Origin: Nannobrachium achirus
Lineage: Eukaryota > Chordata > Actinopteri > Myctophiformes > Myctophidae
DNA length: 64,000 nt
NCBI GenBank assembly: GCA_963921795.1
Contig: OY997644.1
Coordinates: 4,543,022-4,607,021 of the forward strand
Reading direction: 5' to 3'
The notes under the pieces were generated by a model that did no database searches, was not told the DNA's origin, and saw nothing but the letters and a program-made list of their open reading frames with translations. Within the stretch, counting starts at the first letter, position 1; every line of letters starts with the position of its first letter. Of this stretch, positions 2,270-36,431 are shown piece after piece. A program made the translations under genes and the position numbers.

Positions 2270-2590
2270 ACCAGTAAGACTCCCTAATCGGGAGATAAGC
2301 GACCGTAGGTCACATGTATACACAAAGAGGGGTGGGGTGTCCGCGTTGCCTTGGCGGACAAATAGGTACCGGCCCCGGCTCTCCCGGACGCTCCTAGCCC
2401 GAGTTACGGCATTTTATGTGAGCTGCAGTGGAGGGGGTCCTCCACTGGGGGCGTCACCACTTTTGCATCCGTTCTGGAGCACCAGGAGTGGGTGGTCCCC
2501 GGGAATTCCCCGTGAGCAGCCCCGTTGGGGTGGTCATTTGGTCATTTTTGGCTTTTTTTTGGCTTTTGGCACAGCTGAAGTTGATTCCGC
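2270..2590 (-). mobile_element. Family A GCGACC-hairpin element, truncated
   Basis: ACCAGTAAGACTCCCTAAT, then the hairpin CTCCCTAATCGGGAG and a GCGACCGTAGGTCAC hairpin. The body is the reverse complement of the right-hand part of the full insertion at 41389-41918 (shared CTCCCGGACGCTCCTAG and GGGAATTCCCCGTGAGCAG stretches). The element sits in a sequence (ATGCGACCAAAA..ATA) that is uninterrupted near 58905. Confidence 0.75.
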
Positions 2591-2785
2591 TGATTAGCTC
2601 GAGACAGTGTAGTGGGGGATGGGCAGTAAGCAGCTGGGTGGCTTGTGTGGAGAAGATCACTCGCACTATAACTGGGGTGCGGTTTGTTTTGCCATGTCCA
2701 GCATGCTTTGTAATTAGCATGAATTTGGGGTTGAATAAATGGAGTCTGGAGTCAAGGATAGGATGATTGATGTTTGATAGTTAGG

Positions 2786-2910
2786 CCAGGGGTCTTCAAC
2801 AGGGGGTCCGCGACCCCTAGGGGGTCCGCGGAGGTACTGCAGGGGGTCCGTGAAATTATTGCTTAAAAAAAAAAAAAAAAATGTTTTTCTTTTTTTTTTT
2901 TACATTTATG
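2786..2910 (+). mobile_element. hAT MITE terminus, CAGGGGTCTTCAAC family, truncated
   Basis: CAGGGGTCTTCAACAGGGGG followed by GTCCGCGACCCCTAGGGGG is the left end of the element that is complete at 5826-6232 and 55416-55905. A poly(A)/poly(T) tract follows at about 2862-2900. No matching right terminus is visible. Confidence 0.6.
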
Positions 2911-3124
2911 TTAAAAAATAAATCATGATTCTATCCATTTTGAATAGCTTTGATACATGATTACTATGCAATTGACATATTGCTGATATTATTGGTTCTC
3001 AGTTAATAAGTAGTATGACAATACTACTTATTAGTACAACAATTAAATTACATTCTAGTGGAATTAAGGAGATTGACTCCATTGTTGCCTCCACTTATCA
3101 TCTGCAGGTAGAGTTGACTAGACT

Positions 3125-3362
3125 AGCTCACAGCGCGGCACCGAGTGCCGCGCTGCAAGCTTGTAGATCTGCTATTTTTGGAAAAGTCGTGAAAATGTGT
3201 GCAAATCTTTGAATATATGTGTTTTCAAAGCAAACGTTTGTAACTGAAAATTTGCTTCTGGGTGGTCCCTGGAACTACATATTTTGAGATGGGGGTCCGT
3301 GGCCAAATAAATATCAGTTTGGGGGTCCTTGACATGAAAAGGTTAGAGAACCACTGACATGG
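3125..3362 (-). mobile_element. hAT-like element fragment ending AGAACCACTG, with GC-rich hairpin
   Basis: Perfect hairpin CAGCGCGGCA/TGCCGCGCTG (3131-3140 and 3146-3155) joined to AAGCTTGTAGATCTGCTATT, then a body matching 3556-3725 and (reversed) 9890-10060. The end GGTTAGAGAACCACTG is the reverse of the CAGTGGTTCTC terminus seen at 9890. Confidence 0.6.
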
Positions 3363-3990
3363 TAGTCTCTCAAGAACCGACTAACTGAGCTCCAGTTGAA
3401 GTGAAAAGGACCTTTTCTTTGACGATGGCTGGCCAGTTTGCTGACATTTTTTTTCAAAAAACCTTAGAAGGATTCAAAAGACACTTATAGAATCGGGTCA
3501 AAAATCAAATTTTCACGATTTTTTAAAAATGGCAGATCTACAAGCCAAGCTTGTAGATCTGCTATTTTTGACAAAGTCGTGAAAATATGTGCAAATCTTT
3601 GAATATATGTATTTTCAAAGCGAACGTTTGTAACTCAAATTTTGCTTCTGGGTGGTCCCTGGAACTACATATTTTGAGATGGGGGTCCGTGGCCAAATGA
3701 ATATCAGTTTGGGGGTCCTTGACATTTAACCCATTTAGACCTGAACACAATCAATATGACTCAATATTTTATGCTTTAAATATAATAAAAATAGCAGGTC
3801 TACAAGCTCACAGCTGAAAAATCTTGACATTTTTAATTTTAATTCTATAAGTGTCTTTTGAATCCTTCTAAGTTTAAAAAAATCTATGTCAGCAATCTGG
3901 CCAGCCATCATCAAAGAAAAGGTCCACTTCAACTGGAGCTCAGTTAGTCGGTTCTTGAGAGACTACTATGTCAGTGGTTGTCTAACCTTT
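3363..3990. repeat. Composite repeat with two opposed arms and the AGATCTACAAG hairpin
   Basis: The segment from GTCTCTCAAGAACCGACTAA (3365) to about 3530 recurs inverted at about 3815-3970 and again at about 9715-9880. It brackets a hairpin at 3531-3569 (GGCAGATCTACAAG facing CTTGTAGATCTGC) and a hAT-like body. It reads as nested insertion of one repeat into another. Confidence 0.55.
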
Positions 3991-4200
3991 AAAGGAGTAG
4001 TTCACCCCAAAAATGACTTATGTTCTATCAATTGCACATCCGGCGAAGCCTTAAATTCATGGAGATTTAATTTTTTATAGCATTCCTAAGCCAGAAGTGT
4101 TTCCTAGAGGAGTCATCAAATTATTGGCATAGGAATGTGAGAAAAGAAAAATAAATCTCCATGAATTCAGAGCTTCATTGGGTGTGTAATGATATGTTTT
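3988..4200. mobile_element. MITE-like repeat, TTTAAAGGAGTAGTTCACCCC type
   Basis: Begins CTTTAAAGGAGTAGTTCACC. The same leader occurs at 36211 (ATTAAAGGAGTAGTTCACCC). A TTAAAGG-RTAGTTCACCC start is typical of a very common teleost non-autonomous DNA repeat. The interior has an inverted pair (AAATTCATGGAGATTTA against TAAATCTCCATGAATTC) and a GCATTCCTAA/ATAGGAATGTGA pair, so the body folds back. Confidence 0.55.
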
Positions 4201-4299
4201 TAACTAAATAAGCATAGGACCAGGGTAGCCTGATTTCAGACTCAGCTCACGCTTTAGTCTGAAACTGTGCTCTATTCTAAGCGATTTACAGGGAGGGAC

Positions 4300-4440
4300 T
4301 TTTTTGCGAGCGTGCGCGCGAGTGATCGCGATGCACGGTGATCGAGACGCACGGTGGACGCGACGCACGGTCGCGTCCACCGTGCGTCGCGTCCGAGTGC
4401 CGCGCTGCGAGCTTGTAGATCTGCTATTTTTGAAAAAGTC
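4300..4440. repeat. CpG-rich palindrome cluster
   Basis: CACGGTGGACGCGAC (4350-4364) is followed after 5 nt by its exact reverse complement (4370-4384). An overlapping alternative hairpin pairs GGACGCGACGCACGGT with ACCGTGCGTCGCGTCC. GCACGGT recurs four times within 80 bp. The block joins a half-copy of the AGCTTGTAGATCTGCTATTT module at about 4409-4430. Confidence 0.75.
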
Positions 4441-5270
4441 TTGAAAATGTGTGCAAATCTTTCACTGTGCCAGTGACAGAACTGCAACCATAAACATGTA
4501 ATAAACATAAACAGCTTGGTGAACTCAGCGTGTGTGTGCGTGTGCCTTCCTCAGCCTGCCTGTGTGTGAACTTCGTTTGAATCGTTTCAACTGCTGCGCG
4601 GATTGGATATTCGTTAGACCCACCCCCACCCCCCGCGCTCATTGGAGCAGCCGAAAATAAAAAGTGATTCCTGTACTCAGCTCCAGACCAGAGAAAGAGT
4701 CTCTGGTCTCTGAGCGTGGGGCGGGGTCTATGGTCTGGAAGCAGGCTAGGACCAGGGCAGGAATTTCAAAGGAGTCCATGAAGGCCATGGCCGTCGTTCA
4801 GTGGCCCTTCAGTTTGGCCATCTGCCCCTCCAAAAAATGACATGACCTGAGGCCACAGTGGCCTCAATGCCCCCAGCAGCTGACTGTACGACTCCCCTCT
4901 GTCTCTGTCTTCTCATGTAGACGCCAGTGTCTCTTTCTTGTCATGCAGACACCAGTGTCTTTTGTTGAGTCGTCATTTTTAAACCAATCTAGTAACTTTG
5001 ATTTGTGCATGGATCAGATTGTAAATACCAATTTATTTATTTCACACCAGATAGATCCTTAACCCTTAAATTAAACGAATTGTTTTATTAATTATTCTAA
5101 AATCTTGTTTTATTCGATGGCCTTCCTGCCCTGGCATTTGGCCTTTGTGCCCTCAAAGTGGCCTTGCCCCTAAAATGACGAAATTCCAGGCCTGGTTGTT
5201 GATGATAACAATAATATATAAAATGTAATTTGGCAGGCCTTGATGCCGTCTTAATGAGTGATTTCACCCT
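4441..5270. other. Intergenic, no gene seen
   Basis: Mixed sequence with a short tandem of 'agacnccagtgtct' near 4918-4960 and no long ORF. The stretch 5040-5220 is A/T rich. No family was recognised. Confidence 0.4.
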
Positions 5271-5275
5271 TGCTG

Positions 5276-5332
5276 AAAATAGCAGATCTATACCGCATCA
5301 CAACATGTTGTGAGGTTGTAGATCGGCTATTT
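5276..5332. repeat. AGATCTACAAG hairpin module, free-standing
   Basis: GAAAATAGCAGATCTATACC facing GGTTGTAGATCGGCTATTT with an inner CACAACATGTTGTG palindrome. The outer stem shares the AATAGCAGATCTA core with the hairpins at 5971, 10058, 55569 and 56772, but the flanks are unrelated. Confidence 0.65.
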
Positions 5333-5693
5333 ACATCATGAAACCAAGTGTACAATGACTTATTTATAGTGGATATACTGGCCCACTAGTCCCTTCCAAT
5401 TATTTTAGTCTAGTTTGTATTCATCAGAGCTTGTTTTCATTCAATTTCAATTTAGTTTTTGTCAGTGTAAAAAGGTAGTCGCTGAACATGTTTCGTCTTG
5501 TCTTTGAAAACAACACTGGAGCATTTTGGTCCTTGACATGTGAGTTGGAGTAGGTGTACAGTATGTGCAGAGGAAGATTCAGCCTAGATGTATAAAATAC
5601 ATTCACACTTAGAGGGACCTGTTTTTTTGTTTGTTTGTTTTTTTCCCCCTTCTTTATGCCTCTTAACTCTGGTCTTACTCCTTTCCTCTGCAG

Positions 5694-5752
5694 CCTAATG
5701 GCTCTTCCGGCATTGATCTGCTGCAGCCACTCAGAGAAGCCAGAAACACAAG
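5694..5752 (+). CDS. Possible 5' coding exon, degenerate copy of the NET-repeat exon
   Basis: A strong polypyrimidine tract and CTCTGCAG end at 5693 and a GTAGGATT donor starts at 5753. Read with CCT as the first codon the exon is open and leaves two bases, matching the entry phase of the next exon at 6722. The peptide PNGSSGIDLLQPLREARNTR resembles the C-terminal half of the downstream repeat, and the following intron (AGCTTAATCTGATACATG) is homologous to the introns of the tandem units. An ATG at 5698 lies in another frame and would reach a stop in the next exon. It may be a non-functional leftover unit, and no upstream partner exon was found. Confidence 0.4.
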
Positions 5753-5825
5753 GTAGGATTAACACACTTAGCTTAATCTGATACATGACTAAATTATTAT
5801 TAGTTAGTGAATTCAGCCTGTAGAG

Positions 5826-6232
5826 CAAGGGTCTTCAACAGGGGGTCCGGGACCCCGAGGGGGTCCTCAGAGTTACTACAGGGGGTCCTCCAAATCTTTG
5901 TGTGATAGAAAGAAAAGAAAAAGAAAATCTCCTTTATAGACAGATTCTTAACCAGATTTGGAGAACTTTGGCCAAAAATAGCAGATCTACAAGCTCACAA
6001 TGCCTCGCGCTGCGAGGCGTTGTGAGCTTGTAGATCGGCTATTTTCGGCAAAGAGGTTTGGTGTAGAGGGGAGAAGTATTGACAGTTCAAGTGGTTAAAA
6101 AACACAAATTGACATGAATCCAAAATACCCTAATGTATTGTGCTGGCAAACAATATGGAATCTATGATAAGGTTGTGGGCTTCATCTCTCTCAACTAAGG
6201 GGTCCTTGCCCTGACAACTTTGAAGACCCCTG
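5826..6232 (+). mobile_element. Complete non-autonomous hAT element (407 bp) with 8-bp TSD
   Basis: Starts CAAGGGTCTTCAAC and ends TTGAAGACCCCTG, inverted repeats with one mismatch. It is flanked by perfect direct repeats CTGTAGAG at 5818-5825 and 6233-6240, the 8-bp duplication expected of hAT transposition. It has no transposase ORF. The middle is a near-perfect ~38-bp-arm hairpin (5971-6049) containing AATAGCAGATCTACAAGC. It sits in the intron after the possible exon at 5694. Confidence 0.9.
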
Positions 6233-6254
6233 CTGTAGAGGCTTTGCTGTTGTT

Positions 6255-6560
6255 TCTTTAGGTGAGACTATGTAATGAAACTCTTGTCACAGTGTTAGGG
6301 TACAGTTGAAAGGTTTATCTCCAGTATGGGTAAGCTGGTGTGTGTTCAGATTACTTAAATGACTGACTCTTGTCACAGTGTTTACAATGGAATGGTTTTG
6401 CTCCAGTGTGGACATGCTGGTGTCTCTTTAGATCAGATGACGTAGTGAAACTCTTGTCACAAAGTATACACTTGAAAGGTTTTTCTCCAGTGTGGAGATG
6501 CTGGTGTGCTTTCAGACTACTGGACGCATTGAAACACATCTGTTGGGCTTCACCAGCTCC
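6255..6560 (-). pseudogene. C2H2 zinc-finger gene fragment, frameshifted
   Basis: On the minus strand about three Krüppel-type fingers can be read. One is complete (C-x2-C-x12-H-x3-H, positions ~6410-6490) and joined by HTGEKPF/HTGAKPF linkers. The finger upstream has lost its cysteine pair. The one downstream shifts frame after CKHCDKS, and its remainder (NTHQLTHTGDKPF) continues in another frame before a stop. No start, KRAB or SCAN domain is visible. It lies antisense within the intron preceding the exon at 6722 and looks like a stray copy of a large fish ZNF family. Confidence 0.75.
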
Positions 6561-6721
6561 TCCAAAGTCTTGCTGCGTGTGAGATCATCTGCAGGGTTAC
6601 TTGCTGAATCCACATATTGCTGGTGTCTTCATTTTGTCTGCATTTCACTCATACAATCCAGAAGTGTTCTTTTGTATTGAGATTTCTGCCACCTGTTTTT
6701 TTGTGTCCTGCCTCCCTACAG

Positions 6722-6841
6722 CAACAAGGTGAAATTCAGATCTGAGGAGGAGTTGCGGCAGCTTGCAGAATACATTGCCGATGCCTCTGATGAGTCGCTT
6801 GGAAACACCAAATCTAGAACCGCCAAAAGCAGAAAGACCAA
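6722..6841 (+). CDS. Exon: divergent partial NET repeat (40 codons)
   Basis: Acceptor CTCCCTACAG, donor GTAGGATT. Entry and exit are both phase 2 and the length is 120 nt. The peptide contains EEELRQLAEYIADASDESLG and a basic SRTAKSRKT tail. It aligns to the downstream 138-nt repeats but lacks six codons in the middle. It resembles the full NET exon more than the repeats do (LRQLA rather than LQQLA), so it may be the older unit. Confidence 0.7.
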
Positions 6842-9800
6842 GTAGGATTTGCACACTTACAGTAGCTTAATCTGATACATGTCATTATTATGTTCTTTTG
6901 TAATGACTTTTCTGCCACCTGTGTGTCTTGCCTCTATCTACAGAGACGGGGTTAAATCCATGCCTGTGAAGGAGTTGCAGCAGCTTGCAAAAGACATTCC
7001 CCAGGTCTCTTTGCAGCCTAATGCCTCGGATCAGTCGCTCGGAGAGTCCAAATCTAGGAACACCAAAAGCAGAAAGACCAAGTAGGATTTTCACACTTAC
7101 AGTAGCTTAATCTGATACATGTCATTATTATAAACCGGACACCTCACTCAAGCACTACAGAAGTGTTCTTTTGTAATGAGTTCTCTGCCACCTGTGTGTC
7201 TTGCCTCTATCTACAGAGATGGGGTTACATCCATGCCTGTGAAGGAGTTGCAGCAGCTTGCAAAAGACATTCCCCGGGTCTCTTTGCAGCCTAATGCCTC
7301 GGATCAGTCGCTCGGAGAGTCCAAATCTAGGAACACCAAAAGCAGAAAGACCAAGTAGGATTTTCACACTTACAGTAGCTTAATCTGATACATGTCATTA
7401 TTATAAACCGGACACCTCACTCAAGCACTACAGAAGTGTTCTTTTGTAATGAGTTCTCTGCCACCTGTGTGTCTTGCCTCTATCTACAGAGATGGGGTTA
7501 CATCCATGCCTGTGAAGGAGTTGCAGCAGCTTGCAAAAGACATTCCCCGGGTCTCTTTGCAGCCTAATGCCTCGGATCAGTCGCTCGGAGAGTCCAAATC
7601 TAGGAACACCAAAAGCAGAAAGACCAAGTAGGATTTTCACACTTACAGTAGCTTAATCTGATACATGTCATTATTATAAACCGGACACCTCACTCAAGCA
7701 CTACAGAAGTGTTCTTTTGTAATGAGTTATCTGCCACCTGTGTGTCTTGCCTCTATCTACAGAGATGGGGTTACATCCATGCCTGTGAAGGAGTTGCAGC
7801 AGCTTGCAAAAGACATTCCCCGGGTCTCTTTGCAGCCTAATGCCTCGGATCAGTCGCTCGGAGAGTCCAAATCTAGGAACACCAAAAGCAGAAAGACCAA
7901 GTAGGATTTTCACACTTACAGTAGCTTAATCTGATACATGTCATTATTATAAACCGGACACCTCACTCAAGCACTACAGAAGTGTTCTTTTGTAATGAGT
8001 TATCTGCCACCTGTGTGTCTTGCCTCTATCTACAGAGATGGGGTTACATCCATGCCTGTGAAGGAGTTGCAGCAGCTTGCAAAAGACATTCCCCGGGTCT
8101 CTTTGCAGCCTAATGCCTCGGATCAGTCGCTCGGAGAGTCCAAATCTAGGAACACCAAAAGCAGAAAGACCAAGTAGGATTTTCACACTTACAGTAGCTT
8201 AATCTGATACATGTCATTATTATAAACCGGACACCTCACTCAAGCACTACAGAAGTGTTCTTTTGTAATGAGTTATCTGCCACCTGTGTGTCCTGCCTAC
8301 AGCAACAAGGAGAATTCCATGCCTGTGGACGAGTTGCGGCAGCTTGCACAAGACATTGGCCAGGTCCCTGGAGAACAACTCTTTCAAGTGGTAGCACTTA
8401 TCCAGTCTGACCCATCCCGTGGCTCCGCACACGAAGAGGATGAGGTTGATCTCCTTACACTCCAGCCCTTCACACTGCAGATGTTGAAGAACAAATGTAT
8501 CTCCATCCTCCACAAAAAAGGTACTGTGTGTCCTGTTTGTGTTGTGTTGAGAGTAGGTCTAGCCTCAGTGAGTGACCTATGAAGGAAATGTGAGCTGTGT
8601 GCAACAGTGCATGGCGCGCTCTGCTGGACAAAGTATTTCATTGCACTTCCAAATGCAGTCCACAGACTCCACACAGCTCTAAGGCACTGCAGCCAGTTTT
8701 ATTAATTTATTTTTATATCGGCGGGAAATTTCACCGATACCGATATGCCCAAATAAGGTCATATCGGCGGCCGATAATCGGTTCCCGATATATTGGTCTC
8801 TCGCTACTGGTGGTGAGTTTCCTGTCAGCATGAGTACTGGCTTTTTCAGGCAAAAATATTTATTCTTTACCTTTACCACCAGTCTCTGCACCACACTCAT
8901 GTTATCTAATACCAGTAACATTGGGCATTTGTGAGATTTACCATTAGATATCTACCATTCCGCCTCTAGTGTCTACAACTGGGATGGTGTATATCCCTAT
9001 GGGGCTTTTAAGCCGTGACATAATTTTGTAGGCAGAGGAGAATCTGCCCAAAGAGCATTTTCTGTCCCTCGCTATTTCAAAAAACAACGACTAAAGAATA
9101 ACGACTAAAGTATAATTCTAACACTTTCCTTTCAACAACAAAGAGAAGAAAAATGTGTAAATAGTAAAAATAGTAAAAAGATTCACGGAAACTGGGGGCA
9201 GAAATTCTCCTCTGCCTACAAAATGATGTCATACTTAACAGCCCCATACTAATCTTTGCTCTCGTCCTCGTTTCCCCTCTAGAGCATTCGAACAGCAAGT
9301 CGTCCCTCAACGTCCTGGATGCTGCTGCTGACAGACTCCGACACCTCCACTTGCCCGCCTACAATAGTCTCTTCACCCTGCCCTCCACCTCTTCGGCCCC
9401 CAGGCCTGTGCCCTTCTCCCGTGACAACCTGTCACGGCGCAATAGACCTCCTCCTGACCTCTACAACTGTGGCAACTCCTGTACTCCCGACGAAGGTAAC
9501 AGGGATTGTGTGTGGCGACAAATGTTGATACTGTTCAAAATTGAAGCAGATCTGCAAGCTCAAAACCTGTTTGATCTGCTGTTTTAGGTACTTTATGTAA
9601 CAGTAGTAATTGTGACTGAGCCCAAGTCATTGGGGCAAAACTAACTGTTTAGGAGAAGAGAAAACAAGCTCGCCGCGCTGCGAGCTTGTAGATCTGCTAT
9701 TTTAGAAAAATCGTGAAAATTAGAATTTTGACCCGATTCTATAAGTGTCTTTTGAATCCTTCTAAGATTTTCTGAAAAAACCTATGTTTCTATGTCAGCA

Positions 9801-12800
9801 ATCTGACCAGCCATCGTCAAAGAAAAGGTCCTTTTCACTTGAATGGAGCTCAGTTAGTCTGTTCTTGAGAGACTACTATGTCAGTGGTTCTCAAACCTTT
9901 TCATGTGAAGGACCCCCAAAATGATATGTATTTGGCCACGGACCCCCATTTCAAAATATTTAGTTCCAGGGACCACCCAGAAGCAAAATTTGAGTTACAA
10001 ACGTTCGCTTTGAAAATACATATATTCAAAGATTTGAACACATTTTCACAACTTTTTCAAAAATAGCAGATCTACAAGCTCGCAGCTGCTGTGAGCTTGT
10101 ATATCTGCTATTTTTCACTGGTTAAAGCATTCTAGAATTATTGATTCAATAATTCTAGGCCTAAATGGGTTAAAGAGAAATACTATGTAAAAGATCGTAT
10201 TGCCACAATGAACCAATATATCCATGCATCGTTGAGTCAACCATGTATCGTTGTACGTATCATATCGCTGTTAAAATGTATTGTTACACCTCTATTATTA
10301 GTAGTAGCCTTATGTAAGTTGGTGAATCCTCTTTAGTTTGCAAGGTTTTATATACTTGGCAACTAAAATAACCGAGATTGTCTTGTTTGTCCTGTACAGG
10401 TCCCGGCTTCAACTCACTGCCCCAAGATTTATCTGATGACGACAGCGATCAGTCTTCCTTTTCAGACTTAGACGACAAAACATACTCCCCCTCTGCCGAT
10501 AAGAATGCATATTGCAGTGATTCGTCTGAGGAAGTGAAAGCAGGGAGTGAATTTGAGGACACCAGCGAGGGACAAGTGGAACTTTGTGATGATGTGGCAG
10601 CAGAGAGAGATGTCCAACTAAGGAGAAACAGACAAGACTCAGAAGACATCACATACTCCCCCTCTGCCGATAAGAATGCATATTGCAGTGATTCGTCTGA
10701 GGAAGTGAAAGCAGGGAGTGAATTTGAGGAGACCAGCGGGGGACGGGTGGAACTTCGTGATGATGTGGCAGCAGAGATAGATGTCCAACTAAGGAGAGAC
10801 AAACAGGATGTGACAGACACACACACACTCTCTAAGACCACACACACTAAGACCCAAAATGTCTTGAGAACCTCTGTGATAATTCCTGCCGTCACAAGAA
10901 AAGCAGACGGATCTCGTAAATACAGTAAACAACAGTTCTGTTTGTATTGTGAGTTGCCATTCTTAAAGATGGCAAGGCATTTGGAGAACGTTCATCCCAA
11001 GGAGATCGAGGTTGCAAAAGCATTCAGTTTCCCAAAGAATTCTAAAGAAAGGCGAATGCATTTAGATCAGCTCCGCAACAGAGGCAACTATGCCCACAAT
11101 GTTGAAGTTTTAGAAACAGGCTCTGGGACACTGGTACCAAGGAAGCAGCCAAAAAAAGATATGTCAGGGCAAGATGTCCTGCATTGCGTCCACTGCCAAG
11201 GTTGCTTCACAAAATGGTCACTGTGGAGACACATGAAGAAGTGCAAATTCAACCCAGTCGTTAATCCAAAACCTGGAAAAACAAGAGTCCAGGCCTTGTG
11301 TGCATTAGCCGAACCCATCCCCCATGGAGTGTCCAAAGGTGTTTGGAATGTCTTGAGTAAATTGAAAAGGGATCGCATCGCAGATGCAGTCGAAAAAGAC
11401 TGGTGCATTATGGAGTTAGCAAAGTCCCTCTACAAGAGGCACGGATCCAACGCTGCGAAACATGACTACATCCGGAGTAAGTTAAGAGAGCTGGGGCGAC
11501 TTGTCCTTTATGGAAGTGAGATCACGCCACTGAAGAGTATCAGAGATTACATCCAGCCAAAGAACTATGAGCTTACAGTGGAGGCAGTGAAATATGTCGG
11601 ACGAACACATACAAGAAAAGAGAGAGCTGACAGTCTTCCAATGAAACTTGGATACAGCCTCAAGAAACTTGCGATTCTTCTGGAGGGTCGTGCTCTCATC
11701 AGCGGAGACAAACAGTTGGCTGAAGAAGCACTTAACTTCCAAAGGATCTACGACGCAAGATGGGCTGAGGATGTAACAAATGACTGTCGGAAGACCCTGT
11801 CTCAAGCCAAGTGGAATGCCCCACTGCTTCTTCCTCTGACTGAAGACGTCGCAAAATTGCACAAGTACCTGCAGAAAGAGCAGCAGCAATACCTTGAGGA
11901 TCTCAAGTCTACAGTGTCTATGGAGAACTGGAGGAAACTGTCCAGGGTCACTCAAGTTCAGGTTATGCTTTTCAACCGTCGCAGACAAGGCGAGATGAAC
12001 CAGATTAAGCTACAAGACTTCTTGTCGAGAGACAAATCGTCCAACCACGAAGACATCAACTATGCTCTCTCTGACCTCGAGAAAAGGCTGTGCACACACT
12101 TTGCGAGAATCGAAATTGAGGGAAAGTGTGAAAACAAGGTACCCGTTCTATTAACTCCGCTAATGCTGGAATCAGTGGTCTGTCTCTGTGAATACAGAAA
12201 TGAATGTGGTGTCCTTGAGGACAACCCCTATCTATTCGCCATACCCACCAGTATGTCATTCTTTCGCACCAGTGATATTCTCAGAGAGTACACCAAACTG
12301 TGTGACCTCAAGAATCCCCTAGCAATTACAGGAACCAAACTGAGGAAACAACTAGCAACCCTTTCAACGGTTCTGAATCTAAGAGATACGGAGCGGGGGC
12401 AGCTAGCAGATTTTATGGGACATAGCATCCGAGTTCACGACAAGTTTTATAGGCTTCCGGAGAGCACCCTGCAGCTCGCCAGGGTGAGCAAAGTGCTCCT
12501 GGCCATGGAGAAGGGACGAATGGGAGAATTCCAAGGCAAGAACCTGGATGAAATTCACATCGATCCAGATGGTGGGTGTTTCATGCATTGTTATACTTTA
12601 GCTATTGAAATTTAACAGATGCGCAAGCTCGTAGTGCAGCACCGAGTGCCATTGTGCCATGCTACAAGCTTATATATATATATATGCATTTTTTAGAAAA
12701 ATCTTGAAAATGTGGCTTTAATCCTTAGAAGTGTGTGAGGACGACGCGTTTGAGGACGGGTGTGGGGACGGCACGTGTGATGACAACAACATGTGTGAGG

Positions 12801-14947
12801 GGCCTGAGGTCATGGAAGGTATATACTTTGATCATTACAGCAGCACATATTCTGTTACATCTTTATAGCACCCCTCGACTGTTGAGATACATAACACATT
12901 TTAGCATAATGTTGTTTTTCACTGTCACATGCAAAACGGAACAGTTGATGTTCCAATGTTCTTGCCAGTTGTTTGCTTCTCACAGTTATCAGCTTGGAGA
13001 CGGCCACCCTTTTACAGCTCTCGCCATTTGTAATTGACACAAAGACATTACAGGGAGAGATGGCAGACACAATTATCTCCTGCACATTTACTTAAATAAT
13101 ATTTGACTTGTCATTATATAGTTGATGGCCTGAGCGGATCGCTGCAAGATGGGGAGGCGGTGCCAACTGTTGATGGCCTGAGCGGATCGCTGCAAGATGG
13201 GGAGGCGGTGCCAACCGGAGGTAAGGATATTGGACAGGGTTTTCCTTTTTATCTGACCCAGGTCAGCTGGGTGGTCTAAGTGGCTTTGTCAAATTCAGAT
13301 TCAGATTTCTTTATTAACCATTGTGTAATACACATAGGAATTTGCTTTGGCATACTACATTTTTGCATTCAAATCAATTTTTTCACATATAACATACAAA
13401 AACAAAAAAACAGACAAACACAAAAAACACTAACAGAACACAACACGTAGTCACCACAGCAGCCATGGGCGGCGCTATCTTGGAGAACCTGCGCAACAAT
13501 TCAGGGCGATCGGCCAGTCTGTTGCATGTGTCGATTCTCACCAAGTTTGGAGATGTGTAGCAATCAATGCCCGTAGCTTTACTTGGCCTATCTGTGGCAC
13601 TAACAGAATAATGTTGTTCTTGTCATTCAACAGTTGCTAAACAGAGTGGGTCAGCAGGAGTCGGACAGACGGAGCCAAAAACAGGTAAGGATATTGGACA
13701 CTTGCTGTACTATTTCCTTATGACCCCTTAGAAAAAGTAATACATTACTAATACATTACTTATTACTTGAATCAAAGAGTAATATGTTACATTACTTTAT
13801 TACTTTCCCCAGTTCCCCCCTGCCACCCGCAAAATTATAGAGATGTACAACACAATCTGTTTAGAGACAACTTGTAGTGTATGTCGTGTGCAGAATGCTG
13901 CGGTGGATTAGGATCTACAAACTCCTGCACATCTCTGTTGTTATCTGCTGATAGCTTGTAAATCTGTTCTATTTTCACATCATGCAACAACAAGCTTATT
14001 TGTAATGAGTAATGAGGTGTGTTTTGGCAGTAATATCGTTACACTACTTTTGCTGGAAAAGCTAATAATATTACAGTAATATGTAATTTGTTACTGACAA
14101 ACACTGGTAATTTCCCACCAGACTTAAGTTTGATCCAGACCAAGTTTGGAAATGTGTAGCATAGTAGGAGAATCTCCGCCTTACTTGACCTACGTGGCAA
14201 TTAACAATGATCTTGTTGTTCCAACAGTTGCTAAACGGAGTGGGTCAGCACCGACAGGAGCCAGACAGACGGAGCCAAAAAGAGGTAAGGATATTTTGAC
14301 AGCTCTGTGTGTTCCTGGCTGCGTCTGTCTCTGTCCGAGCACGAAATAGCGTTTGGTTAGTTTTTAGTTGTAGTAGTTTTTAGTGTTGGTCTTGCGCAGA
14401 CTAACACACACATTATGTGTATGTATGGTATGATAATTTGGAGTGTTACAGTATAAGCACAGTGAGATTTCCCTTGACTTCAAAGTTCAGCGTTACTTTG
14501 TTGCTGCATAAAGGCTAACATGTTTTTGTTTGTTTACCTTTATATACAAAATTAGTTGTTAAACAGAGTAACAAAGTGTGATGTGCAAAACATACAACAC
14601 ACTACAAAATGAAACTACACTGGCCAATCAAATGCTGAATCTGTGTAGAAATAGCCAGTGGTAGAAATAATTGTAGCTTTTAGGTTAAAAATAATACTAC
14701 ACAAATCGGTTATTCCTTTTTCGTTTTAGCTCGGCAAGAAAAGAGGAAGAATTGGGAACCAGAAGAGAGAGAGGCCGTGGAGAGGCACTTTAAGAGAGCT
14801 ATAAATACTTGTAAGGTCCCAGACAAAAGTGCATGTGACAAGTGTCTGAAAGCAGAGCCTGCACTTATAAAGAGAGATTGGAAATCTGTAAAATATTATG
14901 TCCATAACAAAATTGCCACCCTAAAGAGGAGGATGCAGAAGATGTAG
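6722..14947 (+). CDS. NET-domain / tyrosine-recombinase-like fusion gene (multi-exon, 5' end not found)
   Basis: Fourteen exons join with GT-AG borders: 6722-6841, 6944-7081, 7217-7354, 7490-7627, 7763-7900, 8036-8173, 8303-8520, 9283-9495, 10400-12571, 12729-12818, 13122-13220, 13634-13684, 14228-14284, 14730-14947. Every junction preserves phase, giving 1308 codons and a TAG at 14945-14947. Domains in order: six partial NET repeats, a full NET domain, a Pro/Ser-rich linker, an acidic repeated segment, two zinc-finger-like motifs, a phage-integrase-type tyrosine recombinase fold, acidic and linker exons, and a Trp-bearing SANT/Myb-like tail. NET domains of BET proteins recruit chromatin factors, and tyrosine recombinases cut and rejoin DNA. 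The natural inference is a nuclear protein derived from a recombinase, but its function is unknown. The first exon and promoter are not identified. A pseudogene is possible but unlikely given the unbroken frame. Confidence 0.8.
6850..8246 (+). repeat. Tandem array of exon plus intron units (273 bp) encoding 46-aa partial NET repeats
   Basis: Five 138-nt exons (6944-7081, 7217-7354, 7490-7627, 7763-7900, 8036-8173), spaced exactly 273 bp apart, with conserved acceptor CTATCTACAG and donor GTAGGATTTT. Each enters and leaves in phase 2, so any copy number keeps the frame. Each adds 46 residues: SMPVKELQQLAKDIP (first helix of a NET domain), a Ser/Asn linker, then the basic SRNTKSRKTK. Copies two to five have identical exons; only a C/A change in the intron before the acceptor (GAGTTCTC vs GAGTTATC) separates them. 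Copy one differs at a few codons and has a shorter upstream intron. Confidence 0.9.
8303..8520 (+). CDS. Exon: complete NET (BET extra-terminal) domain
   Basis: Acceptor TGCCTACAG, donor GTACTGTG; entry phase 2, exit phase 1. Of its 72 codons about 65 form a NET domain: helix 1 MPVDELRQLAQDIGQVPGE, helix 2 QLFQVVALIQS, an acidic loop EEDEVDL, and a final helix LQPFTLQMLKNKC. The PGE turn, the alternating acidic/hydrophobic loop strand and the 'LxPxTL' start of helix 3 are the conserved features of the BRD2/3/4 ET domain. In BET proteins this surface binds short basic peptides of chromatin proteins. No bromodomain is visible upstream in this window. Confidence 0.85.
8690..8815. mobile_element. 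Intronic teleost repeat rich in CCGATA/TATCGG
   Basis: TATCGGCGG, ACCGATACCGATATG, TATCGGCGGCCGATAATCGG and CGATATATTGG recur within 110 bp, forming overlapping palindromes. Sequences of this kind (ATCGGCCGATA...) are a common dispersed repeat in fish genomes. It lies in the intron between the NET exon and the exon at 9283. Confidence 0.5.
8998..9248. mobile_element. Intronic inverted-repeat element with ~52-bp arms
   Basis: The left arm (8998-9050) reads TATGGGGCTTTTAAG...TTTTGTAGGCAGAGGAGAAT. The right arm (9195-9248) is its imperfect reverse complement ending CTTAACAGCCCCATA. The interior is ~145 bp of A/T-rich DNA with no ORF. The right arm ends only ~34 nt before the acceptor of the exon at 9283, so the element may have supplied flanking splicing context. 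A target duplication could not be settled. Confidence 0.6.
9283..9495 (+). CDS. Exon: Ser/Pro-rich linker of the NET/recombinase protein
   Basis: Acceptor TTCCCCTCTAG, donor GTAACAGG; entry and exit phase 1, 213 nt (71 codons). The peptide has an amphipathic stretch (LNVLDAAADRLRHLHLP), then a low-complexity Ser/Pro region and an Arg-rich segment (RDNLSRRNRPPPDLYNCG). No known domain recognised. Confidence 0.7.
9545..10160. mobile_element. Intronic hAT-like repeat with AGATCTACAAG hairpins and a 13-bp palindrome
   Basis: The sequence contains CAGTGGTTCTCAAACC at about 9890, a body matching 3170-3350 and 3560-3720, and a hairpin at 10058-10116 (AAAATAGCAGATCTACAAGC facing GCTTGTATATCTGCTATTTT). 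An exact palindrome follows, CTAGAATTATTGA at 10132-10144 against 10146-10158. Half-copies of the hairpin occur near 9545 and 9670. The flank before the hAT terminus repeats the segment at 3815-3970. Confidence 0.6.
10400..12571 (+). CDS. Large exon: zinc fingers plus tyrosine-recombinase-like domain
   Basis: 724 codons, phase 1 in and out (acceptor CCTGTACAG; donor GGTGGGTG after 12571). Residues ~28-140 are acidic and hold a 57-aa tandem duplication. A C-x2-C-x9-H-x4-H motif starts at residue ~181 and a C-x2-C-x11-H-x3-C motif at ~263. The C-terminal half fits a phage-integrase fold. Box I is LFNRRRQGEMNQIKL (Arg ~527). The second box is GTKLRKQLATL (Arg ~649, with Thr where the usual His sits three residues earlier). 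The last is GHSIRVHDKFYRLPE (His ~675, candidate nucleophile Tyr ~684). R, R, H and Y are present, so activity cannot be excluded. Crypton-like ancestry is an inference. Reading past the donor gives a stop at 12613-12615, a possible retained-intron isoform. Confidence 0.8.
10480..10806 (+). repeat. 171-bp in-frame tandem duplication within the large exon
   Basis: ACATACTCCCCCTCTGCCGA begins at 10480 and again at 10651, exactly 171 bp (57 codons) apart. Both copies encode TYSPSADKNAYCSDSSEEVK, then an acidic stretch and a basic end (DVQLRR). The copies differ at a handful of codons, so the duplication is recent and keeps the frame. Confidence 0.9.
12618..12690. repeat. Intronic degenerate AGCTTGTAG/CTACAAGC hairpin and (TA)n
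   Basis: GCGCAAGCTCGTAGTGCAGC and GTGCCATGCTACAAGCTTATA are a degenerate version of the dispersed hairpin module, followed by a short TATATATATA run. It lies between the donor at 12572 and the exon at 12729. Confidence 0.4.
12729..12818 (+). CDS. Exon: acidic Cys/Asp-rich segment (30 codons)
   Basis: Acceptor AATCCTTAG, donor GTATATAC; phase 1 in and out, 90 nt. The peptide (EVCEDDAFEDGCGDGTCDDN...) has four cysteines and many acidic residues. It could be a small metal-binding or purely acidic linker; no family recognised. The preceding intron is short (157 bp). Confidence 0.65.
13122..13220 (+). CDS. Exon: duplicated 16-aa repeat (33 codons)
   Basis: Phase 1 in and out; acceptor TATATAG, donor GTAAGGAT. 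The exon is two copies of a 48-bp unit encoding VDGLSGSLQDGEAVPT plus a final codon. The copies are identical at nucleotide level apart from the last bases, so this is a very recent in-frame duplication. Confidence 0.7.
13280..13400 (-). mobile_element. Intronic LINE 3'-end fragment (probable L2-type)
   Basis: TTCAGATTCAGATTTCTTTA followed by TTGTGTAATACACATAGGAA resembles the reversed 3' end of fish L2/CR1-type LINEs; compare AGGTTCAGGTTCGGTTTATT at the LINE end at 25721. Short and degenerate. Confidence 0.4.
13634..13684 (+). CDS. Exon: 17-codon linker, first of a duplicated pair
   Basis: Acceptor CATTCAACAG, donor GTAAGGAT; phase 1 in and out. Encodes VAKQSGSAGVGQTEPKT. It is paralogous to the exon at 14228, and the flanking intron ends (ACCAAGTTTGGAGATGTGTAG upstream, GTAAGGATATT downstream) are shared too. 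The unit duplicated was therefore exon plus intron. Confidence 0.65.
13725..14120. mobile_element. Intronic repeat of TAATACATTACT type
   Basis: The left part has AAAGTAATACATTACTAATA and related GTTACATTACTTTATTAC stretches. The right part has CAGTAATATGTAATTTGTTAC, an inverted version. This matches a widespread fish dispersed repeat built on (A)GTAATNNATTAC. It separates the duplicated exons 13634 and 14228 and probably inserted after their duplication. Confidence 0.45.
14228..14284 (+). CDS. Exon: 19-codon linker, second of a duplicated pair
   Basis: Acceptor GTTCCAACAG, donor GTAAGGAT; phase 1 in and out. Encodes VAKRSGSAPTGARQTEPKR, paralogous to the exon at 13634 with two extra codons. 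Basic and Ser/Thr-rich, a plausible nuclear localisation linker but not a recognised domain. Confidence 0.65.
14730..14947 (+). CDS. Last exon: SANT/Myb-like C-terminal domain and stop
   Basis: Acceptor TTCGTTTTAG; entered in phase 1; 71 residues then TAG. The peptide starts basic (ARQEKRKNWEPEEREAVERH) and contains KVPDKSACDKCLKAEPAL, then RDWKSVKYYVHNKI and a basic tail. The spaced Trp/Tyr residues, acidic first helix and 'WKSVKYYVHN' third helix resemble a SANT/Myb-like fold, and a Cys-x2-Cys pair sits in the middle. The pattern WxPEE...LKAEP...VKYYV is, from memory, common in predicted fish proteins with a recombinase-like domain. A DNA- or histone-binding role is inferred. Confidence 0.75.
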
Positions 14948-14984
14948 AAAACTACTTCTGCACTCTTAAAACATGATCCTGTAC

Positions 14985-16960
14985 CTGAGTGTTATTATGT
15001 TATTGTGTTCCTGTTAAAACATGATCCTGTATTTCACTGTAGGGAGGAGAGGGGAGACCAGTGTCTGTTCATTCCCTATGCAAGTCACTGTCCTTAAGCC
15101 ACAAGGCAAGCTTCATTCAAACCGTGACTTCATTAGGGGACAATAGACACTGCTTTCCTCCACGCAGGGCAAGCGGGACAAATGCTTTAACAGTGAGTGC
15201 AGTCTATGGCAGTTCTATGCCTAAGGCAGTTCTATTCTAAGTTACTGGCGTAACAGTCTTTTGTTTTTGACTGCTTTTGTTGTAATCTCTGAGCTGTCAG
15301 ATTTTATAGTTCTATTGATGCATAATGACTAATTTGAACTACTGTATTTGCACTGCCAGATGTACTGCCTTAGACAGTACCTCGAGTATTTGTCCAGGCA
15401 GCACTACATTTCATTAATACAGTACCTGGGTGTTATTCTGTTATAGTGTTCCTGTTAAAACATGATCCTGTATTTCACTGTAGGGAGGAGAGGGGAGACC
15501 AGTGTCTGTTCATTCCTTATGCAAGTCACTGTCCTTAAGCCACGAGGCAAGCTTCATTCAAACCGTGACTTCATTAGGGGACAATAGACACTGCTTTCCT
15601 CCACGCAGGGCAAGCGGGACAAATGCTTTAACAGTGAGTGCAGTCTATGGCAGTTCTATTCTAAGTTACTGGCGTAACAGTCTTTTGTTTTTGACTGCTT
15701 TTGTTGTAATCTCTGAGCTGTCAGATTTTATAGTTCTATTGATGCATAATGACTAATTTGAACTACTGTATTTGCACTGCCAGATGTACTGCCTTAGACA
15801 GTACCTCGAGTATTTGTCCAGGCAGCACTACATTTCATTAATACAGTACCTGGGTGTTATTCTGTTTTACTGTTCCTGTTAAAACATGATCCTGTATTTC
15901 ACTGTAGGGAGGAGAGGGGAGACCAGTGTCTGTTCATTCCTTATGCAAGTCACTGTCCTTAAGCCACAAGGCAAGCTTCATTCAAACCGTGACTTCATTA
16001 GGGGACAATAGACACTGCTTTCCTCCACGCAGGGCAAGCGGGACAAATGCTTTAACAGTGAGTGCAGTCTATGGCAGTTCTATGCCTAAGGCAGTTCTAT
16101 TCTAAGTTACTGGCGTAACAGTCTTTTGTTTTTGACTGCTTTTGTTGTAATCTCTGAGCTGTCAGATTTTATAGTTCTATTGATGCATAATGACTAATTT
16201 GAACTACTGTATTTGCACTGCCAGATGTACTGCCTTAGACAGTACCTCGAGTATTTGTCCAGGCAGCACTACATTTCATTAATACAGTACCTGGGTGTTA
16301 TTCTGTTTTACTGTTCCTGTTAAAACATGATCCTGTATTTCACTGTAGGGAGGAGAGGGGAGACCAGTGTCTGTTCATTCCCTATGCAAGTCACTGTCCT
16401 TAAGCCACAAGGCAAGCTTCATTCAAACCGTGACTTCATTAGGGGACAATAGACACTGCTTTCCTCCACGCAGGGCAAGCGGGACAAATGCTTTAACAGT
16501 GAGTGCAGTCTATGGCAGTTCTATGCCTAAGGCAGTTCTATTCTAAGTTACTGGCGTAACAGTCTTTTGTTTTTGACTGCTTTTGTTGTAATCTCTGAGC
16601 TGTCAGATTTTATAGTTCTATTGATGCATAATGACTAATTTGAACTACTGTATTTGCACTGCCAGATGTACTGCCTTAGACAGTACCTCGAGTATTTGTC
16701 CAGGCAGCACTACATTTCATTAATACAGTACCTGGGTGTTATTCTGTTTTACTGTTCCTGTTAAAACATGATCCTGTATTTCACTGTAGGGAGGAGAGGG
16801 GAGACCAGTGTCTGTTCATTCCCTATGCAAGTCACTGGCCTTAAGCCACGAGGCAAGCTTCATTCAAACCGTGACTTCATTAGGGGACAATAGACACTGC
16901 TTTCCTCCACGCAGGGGAAGCACAGGACGCATGCTTTAACTTAACAGTGAGTGCAGCATA
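14985..16960 (+). repeat. 3'-UTR tandem repeat, ~441-bp unit, five copies
   Basis: CTGTTAAAACATGATCCTGT starts at about 15011, 15452, 15876, 16317 and 16758 (spacing 441, 424, 441, 441). The 424-bp unit lacks a 17-bp CCTAAGGCAGTTCTATG stretch. Each unit has a splice-acceptor-like CACTGTAG before GGGAGGAGAGG and a donor-like AACAGTGAGTGCAG ~150 bp later, so a unit looks like an exon with its intron. The last copy diverges after CACGCAGGG. The array follows the gene's stop codon by ~40-60 bp. Confidence 0.85.
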
Positions 16961-17131
16961 AATCACTTTTGTGATGGACTTTTGTTTTGGAGTGCCCTTA
17001 TTGCAATGTTTGAAATGTGAGATTTCAATTCAATTGTTACAGTTCAATTGTTACATAACTGTATTTGCAGTACTGTATGCACCGTTACATTTAGGCTACT
17101 GTCTTAGACAGTACCTTCTGTTCAGACTGGA

Positions 17132-17137
17132 AATAAA
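17132..17137 (+). terminator. Candidate polyadenylation signal AATAAA
   Basis: AATAAA lies in GGAAATAAAGTTAAG, about 170 bp past the last 3'-UTR repeat and 2.19 kb past the stop codon. It is the first canonical signal I noticed downstream of the repeat array. No transcript evidence is available. Confidence 0.4.
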
Positions 17138-17159
17138 GTTAAGTAATACCTGAAGAGTG

Positions 17160-18185
17160 TGTGAAGTAGTATATCTGTGCTATGGTGAACCCAGAAAAAT
17201 GTGGAGAGTTATAAGAATTCATTTTCAAATCAAAGGGGTTTTATTGGCAGGAGAAAATGTACATTTGAATTGCCAAAGCAAGTGTCTAACTATAAATACA
17301 GTTGAAAGAGGGGAACATAAAAGAGTTGTAGGGGCACAGCACAGTGTAAACAGCTGTCACATTTTGTTATTATATATACGTATATATACATTCAGGGTAT
17401 AACAAATGGCAGACATCTTTTGCAGTTGCTTTAGGACAAAAAGCTGCTTTTTTTCTGCAGTGATTTTAAAGTATTTGATGTAAAATGCATTTAAAGGTAG
17501 CAGAACTGTTTATATATACAATGCTAGCAGTCCATAGGGTGGTTGTAATCCATTCTCTAGCCTTCTATCGCAACAGTACACAAGTCTTTTGTGCTGTCTT
17601 CCCACATTTTTTGTATTTCTTCCTGTAGGCATGTTCCTAGTGTAGCTGAGTGTCTCAACCTCAACCTGATGGCAGAAATATCTACCTTGAATCATTACTA
17701 AGTATAACTCATTAACTTGTCTGTGGGTACTGTACCATAATGAATCATGAATGAATGATTGTTTGATACAAGCAAACTGACAACTTCACTCTCTGTCTGG
17801 TCTGTGCTTTACTGAGCAAGTTTTCTACAGGTAGTTCATTCTGAAATGGACAAACCTTTTTGTCCAGTCCAGTGTTGCTCGACGAGTCAGTAAGTTGCCA
17901 TTTTAATACAGCGGCACATGACTAAGTTAGTGATTTGATCTGACCTCCATCATGCTTTGTGGCGGTCCCAAGACCAACACAGTCTATCTCTGCAGTCTGT
18001 CAGGGTGAATAACTGATCTGGATACTCTGGTACTTGTTTATGGGGGTTGAACCAATAGTGACCATGATCAATTATTAGACTCAAGCTTCCTCATACTCAG
18101 ACAGAGCTGGGCAAGACAGCTTTCTCTGTCAGTGGCCCAACTTCGTGATATGATCTCCAAACTCTAAAACGCAGCTCCCTGACCT
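17160..18185. other. Intergenic, no gene seen
   Basis: A/T-rich unique-looking sequence with a short TATATATACGTATATATA palindromic run near 17370-17390. No long ORF, no recognised repeat. Confidence 0.4.
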
Positions 18186-18440
18186 CCCTGGTGTCCTCAG
18201 GAAGACATTAATCTGAAAGTGTGTTATGGTGTCCCCAGGAAGACATATCTGAAAGTGTGTTAAGGTGTCCCCAGGAAGACATATCTGAAAGTGTGTTATG
18301 GTGTCCCCAGGAAGACATATCTGAAAGTGTGTTATGGTGTCCCCAGGAAGACATATCTGAAAGTGTGTTATGGTGTCCCCAGGAAGACATATCTGAAAGT
18401 GTGTTATGGTGTCCCCACGAAGATGGTTGTATCTGACGTC
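18186..18440 (+). repeat. 36-bp minisatellite, about 6-7 copies
   Basis: The unit is GTGTGTTATGGTGTCCCCAG followed by GAAGACATATCTGAAA. The first copy is longer and slightly divergent and one copy has TTAAGG for TTATGG. Because 36 is a multiple of three, several frames stay open across it; those ORFs are artefacts. Confidence 0.9.
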
Positions 18441-18627
18441 CCCACGTGGGACGACCCAGTCAGATCTGGGAGAAAAAGTATTGAATTTTGATAATTTAAA
18501 GTCAGAATCTTGTTCCTGATTTTTTTCTGGTCATGCCTGATTTTTTTCAGAGCTGTAGCATGTCTAGAAAGGGGGGTCCCCAGGAGGGACGCCGTTGTCT
18601 GATTGTCCCACGATGTAGCAAAAACAA

Positions 18628-18727
<100 letters not shown>

Positions 18728-27099: not shown

Positions 27100-28070
27100 C
27101 AGCTGAAGCATGAGCTGGGGAAAAAAAATGTTAGCAGCAAACATGTAGCAGCCAAAGCATAAAGCCGTAATGATAAAAGATGATAGCAGCAGCCATGAAG
27201 CAGCTTTAATAGGAAGCTGAAATGATAAAACATGTTAGCAGCAGCCATGAAGCAGCTTTAGCATGATGCTGTAATGATACACATCATGTTAGCAGCAGCC
27301 ATGAAGCAGCTTTAGCATGATGCTGTAATGATATACATCATGTTAGCAGCAGCCATGAAGCAGCTTTAGCATGGAACTGAAATGATAAGCATGATGTTAG
27401 AAGCAGGCATGTAGCTAATTTAGCATGGAGCCGTAATGATAAACAGGTTAGCAGCAGGCATGTAGCAGCTTTAGCATGGAGCTGTAATGATAAACATGTT
27501 AGCAGCAGGCATGTAGCAGCTTTAGCAAGGAGCTGAAATGATAAACACGAAGTTAGCAGCAGGCATGTAGCAGCTTTAGCAGGACACTGAAATGATAATT
27601 ATGTTAGCAGCAGCCACAAAGCAGCTTATAGCATGAAACTGAAATGATAAGCATGTTAGCAGCAGACATAGCAGCTTTAGCATGATTAACATGCTAGCAG
27701 CAGACATAGCAGCTGAAGCATGATGGTGAACATATTAGCAGCAGTACACAAAGGGGTGAAGTAAAAACAAAACCTCTGGCAAAACCAAACCCATAGGTAC
27801 CTTTGAGGACAAAGCCAACAGAAAACCACTGTAGCAGCTGTAGCATGATGCTGCACTGATAACAAGATGTTAGCAGCAGGCATGAGCAGCTTCAGCATGA
27901 AGCTGTAATGAAAAACATGATTTTAGCAGCAGGCATGAAGCAGCTTTAGCATGGAGCTATAATGGTAAACATGTTAGCAGCAGCAGCATAAACATGTTAG
28001 CAGCAGGCATTTAGCATGAGCTGTAAAGATAAACATGATCTCAGCATTTTTACTAACAGTAGCATTAGCT
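27100..28070. repeat. Minisatellite, ~45-55-bp unit (ATGTTAGCAGCAGGCATGTA)
   Basis: About 18 units of ATGTTAGCAGCAG(C/G)CATG followed by AAGCAGCTTTAGCATG and a TGAAATGATAAACA-type spacer. The unit varies in length and sequence, so this is an old array. It borders the truncated LINE on its left. Confidence 0.85.
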
Positions 28071-31845: not shown

Positions 31846-31956
31846 ATAGATGTTTATTTCAGCAATCTTTCGCTGGCTTTAGGTGACCCGTGGGCTAACA
31901 GGAGCTTTTAAAATCGTATAATTCGCATGGTGGTGCCAGGAGCTCTCAGTCTAAGC

Positions 31957-36209: not shown

Positions 36210-36430
36210 TTAAAGGAGTAGTTCACCCCCAAAATGACTTTTTTTCTATTGATTAGTCACGCCATGGAGACTAGAGTTCAATAATATTTTTAGTTATTTG
36301 TCGCATTCCTAAGATAAAAATGTGATAACAATAAATTTACCCCCATTTGTTCCGGATGGGGACCCGTTTAGAAACGGGTCCCAATCCGGAATTAATGGGG
36401 GTAAATTTAGGAATGTGACAAAAACCAAAA
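36210..36430. mobile_element. MITE-like repeat TTAAAGGAGTAGTTCACCCC with central palindrome
   Basis: Starts TTAAAGGAGTAGTTCACCCC as at 3990. The centre is a ~30-bp-arm imperfect palindrome (ACCCCCATT..TTCCGGAT..GGGACCCGTTT against AAACGGGTCCC..ATCCGGAA..AATGGGGGT, about 36338-36408). The end GGAATGTGACAAAAA mirrors GTCGCATTCCTAA. It directly abuts the first family B unit. Confidence 0.65.
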
Positions 36431-36431
36431 A

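Follow-up and report, generated by a model that had tools for sequence, protein, structure and literature searches.

A BET-type extraterminal domain joined to a tyrosine recombinase in Nannobrachium achirus: a probable young DNA element of TG microsatellites

Introduction

Some retroviral and retrotransposon integrases find chromatin through host readers. In the case of murine leukaemia virus, the integrase docks on the extraterminal (ET, or NET) domain of BRD4 (passages of PMC5701133), such that an integrating enzyme and an ET domain take part in one targeting route: the enzyme holds the peptide and the host supplies the ET domain. Among mobile DNA, passages of PMC3212892 describe Cryptons as having a tyrosine recombinase (YR) for their only apparent mobilising enzyme and as having short non-autonomous derivatives; a circle model is reported there, the enzyme has an R-H-R-Y tetrad with short terminal direct repeats as its recombination substrate, and animal Cryptons are presented as having neither a C-terminal domain nor terminal repeats. 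DIRS and Ngaro elements are YR retrotransposons with a reverse transcriptase in the element, and DUF3504 host genes retain a YR remnant without the catalytic Tyr and Arg II.

Here we describe a locus within a window of 64,000 nucleotides of Nannobrachium achirus (assembly GCA_963921795.1, contig OY997644.1, positions 4,543,022 to 4,607,021, forward strand), where a sequence-only reading had noticed a gene fusing NET sequences to a YR-like domain. That reading knew of no described protein with this domain order, and the statement held in the open-access literature: titles, abstract starts and some passages yielded no description of a NET or SET domain joined to a tyrosine recombinase.

The gene probably belongs to a mobile element, which resembles Cryptons in its YR as the only apparent mobilising enzyme, in its short derivatives and in the circular intermediate proposed for both. 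It is unlike them in its inverted terminal repeats, (TG)n target, introns and length of ~17 kb, as well as in its C-terminal helix-turn-helix, N-terminal NET domain and Thr in place of the tetrad His. It is filed as a YR element rather than a Crypton because of that Thr and its inverted ends; the Repbase CryptonV group, known to us by name only, may include this YR family. In contrast to the DUF3504 genes it has both Tyr and Arg II, and no single frame besides the YR exon is long enough for a reverse transcriptase of the DIRS/Ngaro kind. The ET/NET domain is common to the element and the BET proteins BRD2/3/4, whereas the tandem bromodomains of the latter were not found in the frames scanned; unlike murine leukaemia virus, the element carries the ET domain itself. 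Fish SET-YR-HTH proteins (e.g. Alosa sapidissima LOC121718805, Boleophthalmus LOC129412454) have the same zinc-finger, YR and tail regions, and share with it a host-derived N-terminal chromatin domain and repeated linkers, but have a KMT5A-like SET domain where the element has NET.

Results

The gene model

The sequence-only reading had proposed 14 GT-AG exons with a single open frame, and the splice borders and exon join confirm this: in the sequence of the window they give 1308 codons and one terminal stop, with AG before every exon and GT after all but the last. One further upstream exon, absent from that model, fits in frame. The exons are:

5694..5752, plus strand: extra upstream exon, in frame, identical in 9/9 copies
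6722..6841, plus strand: exon with a diverged NET helix-1 segment and basic tail
6944..8173, plus strand: tandem region of five 273-bp units, each with a 138-bp exon (6944-7081, 7217-7354, 7490-7627, 7763-7900, 8036-8173) encoding NET helix 1 and a basic tail
8303..8520, plus strand: exon with the complete NET (ET) domain, matching Pfam BET and BRD2/3/4
9283..9495, plus strand: linker exon
10400..12571, plus strand: large exon with an acidic linker, two zinc-finger motifs, and the core-binding and catalytic tyrosine-recombinase domains
12729..12818, plus strand: acidic linker exon
13122..13220, plus strand: linker exon of two 48-bp units
13634..13684, plus strand: short linker exon
14228..14284, plus strand: short linker exon
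14730..14947, plus strand: last exon, with a helix-turn-helix (homeodomain/Myb-like) tail and the stop

Splice sites were ranked by a general splice consensus against the 4155 AG and 3953 GT sites of the window. The acceptors of exons 1-9 and 14 fall in the top 1% of AG sites, with weaker ones at 12729 (24%), 13122 (12%), 14228 (4.8%) and 13634 (2.7%); the weaker donors are those of the NET exon (top 8.4% of GT sites), 12729-12818 (5.1%) and exons 1-6 (4.7%). Codon usage scored with 10843-12570 as the training sequence supports the modelled frame in 11 of the remaining 13 exons, the exceptions being the 51- and 57-bp exons, and comparison with 1000 stop-free stretches each gives exon fractions of 0.006-0.056 (NET exon 0.011, exon 8 0.039). 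Splice signals and codon score are more than chance would give.

The first in-frame ATG of the 14-exon model is codon 46. The exon at 5694-5752 (acceptor in the top 0.10%, donor in the top 0.71%) lengthens the frame, and a candidate start exon is present only in full-length copies elsewhere, not in the window copy. The phase of the NET donor matches that of the YR acceptor, whether or not exon 8 is included. The exon at 10400 has no in-frame ATG before codon 604, which lies within the first zinc finger, and the interval from 8521 to 10399 offers a single fitting alternative ATG exon with a fair donor. The linker exon at 9283..9495 has no relative among the homologues compared, and the counterpart of 13122..13220 has three units (147 nt) in 7/8 other copies and 149 nt in the copy C14b.

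The NET domain

Profile searches of the predicted protein, proposed in the sequence-only reading, recovered one of its two domains: NET was found, and the YR went unseen by sequence profiles. The exon at 8303-8520 alone matches Pfam BET at E 5e-9 and the human BRD2/3/4 ET chains at E 2e-10 to 5e-8. Several exons had been read as NET sequences; this exon does encode a whole NET domain, but the six exons upstream contain helix 1 only. Across nine copies the 273-bp helix-1 units number 2 to 5 per copy, and the DNA of the NET exon is identical in 9/9. The domain has 17 matches in the genome: ten at 100% protein identity, which are the element copies, and seven at 43-51%, which are putative host BET genes. 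Scans of the exons, of nine plus-strand window frames to the left of the gene and of two frames from a full copy's left part found no bromodomain.

The groove of the BRD4 ET domain is lined by I622, L630, V633, V634, I652, I654 and F656 together with D650, E651, E653, D655 and E657 (passages of PMC13021927). In alignment with BRD4, the element has I, L, V, V, D, V and L at the former positions and E, E, E, D and L at the latter. Thus I622, L630, V633, V634, E651, E653 and D655 are kept, including the charge pair E651/E653; the replacement of I652 by Asp, F656 by Leu and E657 by Leu means that peptide binding may differ. Since E651/E653 are retained but I652 is replaced, a role of NET in tethering the recombinase to chromatin can only be called probable. 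That most groove residues are kept at 43-51% identity to the seven other genome matches suggests long retention under constraint; the element copies themselves are too young for testing constraint on NET.

The recombinase core, zinc fingers and tail

The YR is unrecognised in sequence profiles, NCBIfam, PHROGs and PDB sequence searches. Its AlphaFold2 model matches XerH, XerD, Cre, lambda Int and topoisomerase IB, and the R, R, H and Y of the integrase-like domain noted from the sequence are present, so that this part of the earlier description stands. The catalytic R, K, R, H and Y are found in the window copy, with Thr for His II, and all five are kept in 75/88 sequences; Thr replaces the HxxR His of the R-H-R-Y tetrad in the window copy and in 79/88. 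By its modelled fold, Arg I, Lys, Arg II, His/Trp III and Tyr the gene product would be placed in the tyrosine recombinase superfamily, with pLDDT below 50 at 504-512 and 526-538, the stretches that adjoin Arg II and hold His III and Tyr. The tail, described earlier as SANT/Myb-like, has a confident helical model, but its matches to homeodomain and Myb folds are at E 1 or worse; among the 128 homologues extending 60 aa or more beyond the core, 109 have it. No relative was found in viral contigs, and Rfam gave no match in the window.

Copies and extent of the element

A genome search with the YR exon gave 62 scored matches of 211 candidates. Among the best matches listed, 14 rows at 97-100% protein identity represent ten elements and one fragment on eight contigs (C2, C7, C8 with two, C10, C13, C14 with two, C19 and C206), seven of which are 62-79 Mb each. 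A NET exon with identical protein occurs in 10/10 of these near-identical copies. Older YR relatives are numerous, and no NET was seen with them among the best-scoring candidates. Eight further copies were read alongside the window copy (n=9; the C206 copy was left out). The copies are ~99% identical, and the eight further ones comprise a full element of ~17 kb (17505 in C10). The features of the window copy are:

2561..18630, plus strand: window copy of the element, left-truncated; the other eight copies extend ~1.4 kb further left
14981..16921, plus strand: 441-bp tandem array inside the element, 3' of the stop
18603..18630, plus strand: right end, inverted-repeat arm TTGTCCCACGATGTAGCAAAAACAA plus GTA, the same in 9/9 copies
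18631..18726, plus strand: (TG)48 microsatellite at the insertion site

Alignments of the window with the other copies start at 2561 in 8/8 cases and end in or just past the TG run. To the left of this point the eight others share ~1.4 kb, including the candidate start exon, that the window copy lacks. The 16 outer flank pieces have no mutual similarity (20 matches, all self), and the NET, YR and helix-turn-helix exons all lie within the element. The earlier reading had left two possibilities, a mobile element that had taken up an ET domain and a host gene made from a recombinase; ten near-identical NET copies, shared ends in the nine compared and unrelated flanks favour the former.

Besides the YR exon, the longest stop-to-stop frame inside 2561-18630 is 180 aa; other long frames are one of 202 aa across the right end (TG repeat) and, on the left side of a full copy, one of 201 aa. 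A Pfam scan of six element frames, the 202-aa frame not among them, found no transposase, and no single frame besides the YR exon is long enough for a reverse transcriptase, though one split by introns would escape this count. An ECR1_N Pfam match in the repeat frame 18132-18530 (E 2.5e-6) looks like a repeat artefact, no stretch of it passing alone. A SET domain to the left of the window was rejected, as the element ends ~1.4 kb left of the 2561-equivalent without one; a tblastn of the family SET domain against the nine oriented copies had a best E of 0.85 among the matches seen, and NET was found in 9/9.

Some other sequences of the window may be recorded. A C2H2 zinc-finger fragment at 6354-6584 (minus strand), in the intron 5752/6722, matches Pfam zf-H2C2_2 at E 7.3e-15, and the same frame is found in a full copy. 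Units of ~1.5 kb are repeated in both orientations at 36420-53050 (88-99.7% identical), and two 4.9-kb stretches, 53116-58023 and 59135-64000, are 97% identical, a recent duplication. By eye, a 436-codon frame at 25927-27234 (minus strand) resembles a LINE reverse transcriptase and a 295-codon frame at 30994-31878 (minus strand) an L1 ORF1 protein.

Ends, target and derivatives

The right end reads TTGTCCCACGATGTAGCAAAAACAAGTA-(TG)n with TG in the same orientation at 9/9 copies, and the left end (TG)n-TTTGTTTTTGCTACTTCGTGGGGACAA in 8/8 full copies, with one T fewer in C10. The right end of the window copy aligns with the reverse complement of the full copies' left end, and the two ends form imperfect inverted repeats of ~26 bp. 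TG runs the same way at both ends in 8/8 full copies, with (TG)n of variable length; part of this (TG)n could be the element's own sequence.

The arm motif has 71 matches genome-wide and its reversed control none. The 71 arms were sorted into left-type and right-type by an internal base, because counting by the bases next to the microsatellite is partly circular (the reversed-pattern control of the latter count gave one match). Outward of the left-type arms there are 34 CA, 0 TG and 3 neither; outward of the right-type arms, 28 TG, 3 CA and 3 neither, the three with CA being left ends of 0.5-kb derivatives whose two ends both have the right-type base.

Derivatives with the same ends and target comprise four of 485-500 bp and one of 10.6 kb. 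The four small ones (L036, L037, L038 and L039) are MITE-like, lie in (TG)n and are 92-96% mutually identical; one of them sits in a compound repeat whose next part is (GA)n, suggesting that the microsatellite predates the insertion. A similar right end, GTAGCATACCCAAGTA-(TG)n, is found in a relative whose YR is 59% identical. A second size class of ~9-12 kb also shares the arms (C2:47.52 Mb, C4:29.58 Mb, C8:58.12 Mb, C16:43.28 Mb and others). In it the left arm is often doubled, ~0.93-0.97 kb apart; the class is absent from the YR matches listed, and its C16 member has no frame above 117 aa.

Intactness and selection

In 8/8 full copies the candidate start exon (MELEEGRRIMSTHE) is found ~0.4 kb in from the left end and fits the frame; the frame of C10 also accommodates a longer start with the same donor, as well as one other exon. 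From this exon to the end of the tail, stop included, an open frame of 1222-1360 codons runs through five of the eight (C8a, C10, C14a, C2 and C8b), and three are broken (C13, C14b and C19). The window copy, having lost the left end together with the candidate start exon, is probably a dead relic. A selection test on eight copies, the window copy included, found 24 ungapped variable sites in 6.7 kb and no signal: 12 of 3116 exon sites vary against 12 of 3563 intron sites (p 0.84), with 4 synonymous and 8 non-synonymous changes. The copies are very young, and this variation is compatible with selection or with none, neither showing nor excluding it.

A fish-wide family of YR proteins

Searches with the YR core gave 121 and 195 homologues at E 0.001, each from ~8000 scored candidates, and all those listed with an organism name are, as judged from the names, from ray-finned fish. 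A KMT5A-like SET domain occurs in 103 of the 148 homologues with at least 150 residues before the core, many of them isoforms, and in 31 of the 88 sequences selected for the tree; a homologue from Epinephelus coioides combines THAP and SET. Linker peptides are repeated in the N-termini of 110/148, isoforms included. NET was found in 0/196 homologues, and a search of the protein collection with NET plus linker, reaching proteins of ~720-2289 aa that share 5-residue words, gave 0 of 848 candidates at E 0.001.

In 97 of the 103 SET domains the three residues after GR(L/M)xN are DEN, DDH, DNH, DDN or similar, the pattern being unmatched in six. KMT5A has HS at these positions, and the methyltransferase activity of the SET domains is accordingly doubtful. 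Another protein containing the YR core, P0175 of Megalops cyprinoides, is ATF7IP-like; an ancient Crypton insertion in ATF7IP is published (passages of PMC3212892).

Six SET-YR genes of Alosa sapidissima (P0024, P0132, P0133, P0134, P0155 and P0083), on contigs differing in size, have cores 99.6-100% identical, with a seventh gene at 54-58%; from these identities they probably represent a recently mobile, SET-carrying relative. Near-identical cores in distant fish (Centropristis/Xyrichtys 96.8%; Carassius gibelio/Micropterus 98.0%, the Micropterus record being a 20-kb scaffold for which contamination is possible) suggest horizontal transfer.

Discussion

Proposed mechanism

With a probability of roughly 0.72 for the explanation as a whole, we propose that the gene is the recombinase gene of a young ~17-kb YR DNA element that is targeted to microsatellites and has an ET domain built in. 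Its protein would bind the terminal arms via the YR core, and probably also via the zinc fingers and tail. The element would exit in circular form, with its two arms on either side of a TG core. A usual YR site has two inverted repeats of 11-13 bp around a segment of 6-8 bp (passages of PMC3212892), and the arms here are longer than such repeats. Strand exchange between the TG core of the circle and genomic (TG)n, via the conserved tyrosine, would then reinsert the element, and the direct TG at both ends with its fixed orientation would be a consequence of this exchange. The built-in NET domain may bind ET-ligand peptides on chromatin proteins, bringing the recombinase to open chromatin, a mirror image of the docking of murine leukaemia virus integrase on the ET domain of its host.

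Alternative explanations

An explanation that accepts the mobility of the element but denies NET a targeting role, making it a passenger exon or one concerned with dimerisation, nuclear import or control of the element, is unlikely, though it has several observations behind it: NET helix-1 pieces are amplified as tandem linker exons (2-5 units) like the linker repeats of 110/148 homologues, I652 is replaced by Asp, and a selection signal is absent among the copies. It sits less well with a NET protein identical in 10/10 copies and with most groove residues kept despite the 43-51% identity to other genome matches. It is improbable that the ends are moved by some other enzyme, for instance a DDE transposase encoded elsewhere, with the NET-YR gene as cargo. 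In favour of this, DDE elements typically have terminal inverted repeats, animal Cryptons are reported to be without terminal repeats (passages of PMC3212892), and the 10.6-kb derivative shares the ends but has no frame above 117 aa, its size class being absent among the YR matches listed. However, the longest non-YR frames are 180, 202 and 201 aa, and no transposase was found in the Pfam scan of six frames (not including the 202-aa one); the fixed orientation in (TG)n suits exchange at an asymmetric core better than insertion of symmetric ends, and similar ends are found in the relative whose YR is 59% identical.

We give only a small chance to the reading that the NET exons are transcribed separately from the YR exon. 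The NET donor is indeed weak (top 8.4%), but its phase agrees with that of the YR acceptor, both exons accompany each other in 10/10 copies, and the exon at 10400 has no in-frame ATG before codon 604, with a single alternative ATG exon fitting between 8521 and 10399. That the gene, once mobile, is now a regulator serving the fish is highly improbable: host genes derived from Cryptons exist (passages of PMC3212892), and the genome has many older YR relatives (the 62 scored matches of 211 candidates), but ~99% identical copies with element ends, unrelated flanks and short derivatives mark recent mobility.

Implications

Beyond the young NET-YR element itself, a wider proposal, which we hold tentatively and at slightly less than even odds, is that intron-bearing YR transposons across fish swap N-terminal host chromatin domains (SET, THAP+SET, NET) as targeting modules and insert directionally in (TG)n, the NET branch being the first mobile recombinase to carry its own BET extraterminal domain. 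Insertions in (TG)n may be tolerated because such tracts are abundant. Genome engineers would have an interest in a vertebrate-genome recombinase able to join DNA to a simple repeat in one set orientation; the copies in TG-repeat DNA make targeted insertion in animals directly testable, and, being young and near-identical with defined ends, they open excision, the choice of target and the function of NET to tests in cells. In this fish, a DNA element seems to have a chromatin reader built into its own recombinase.
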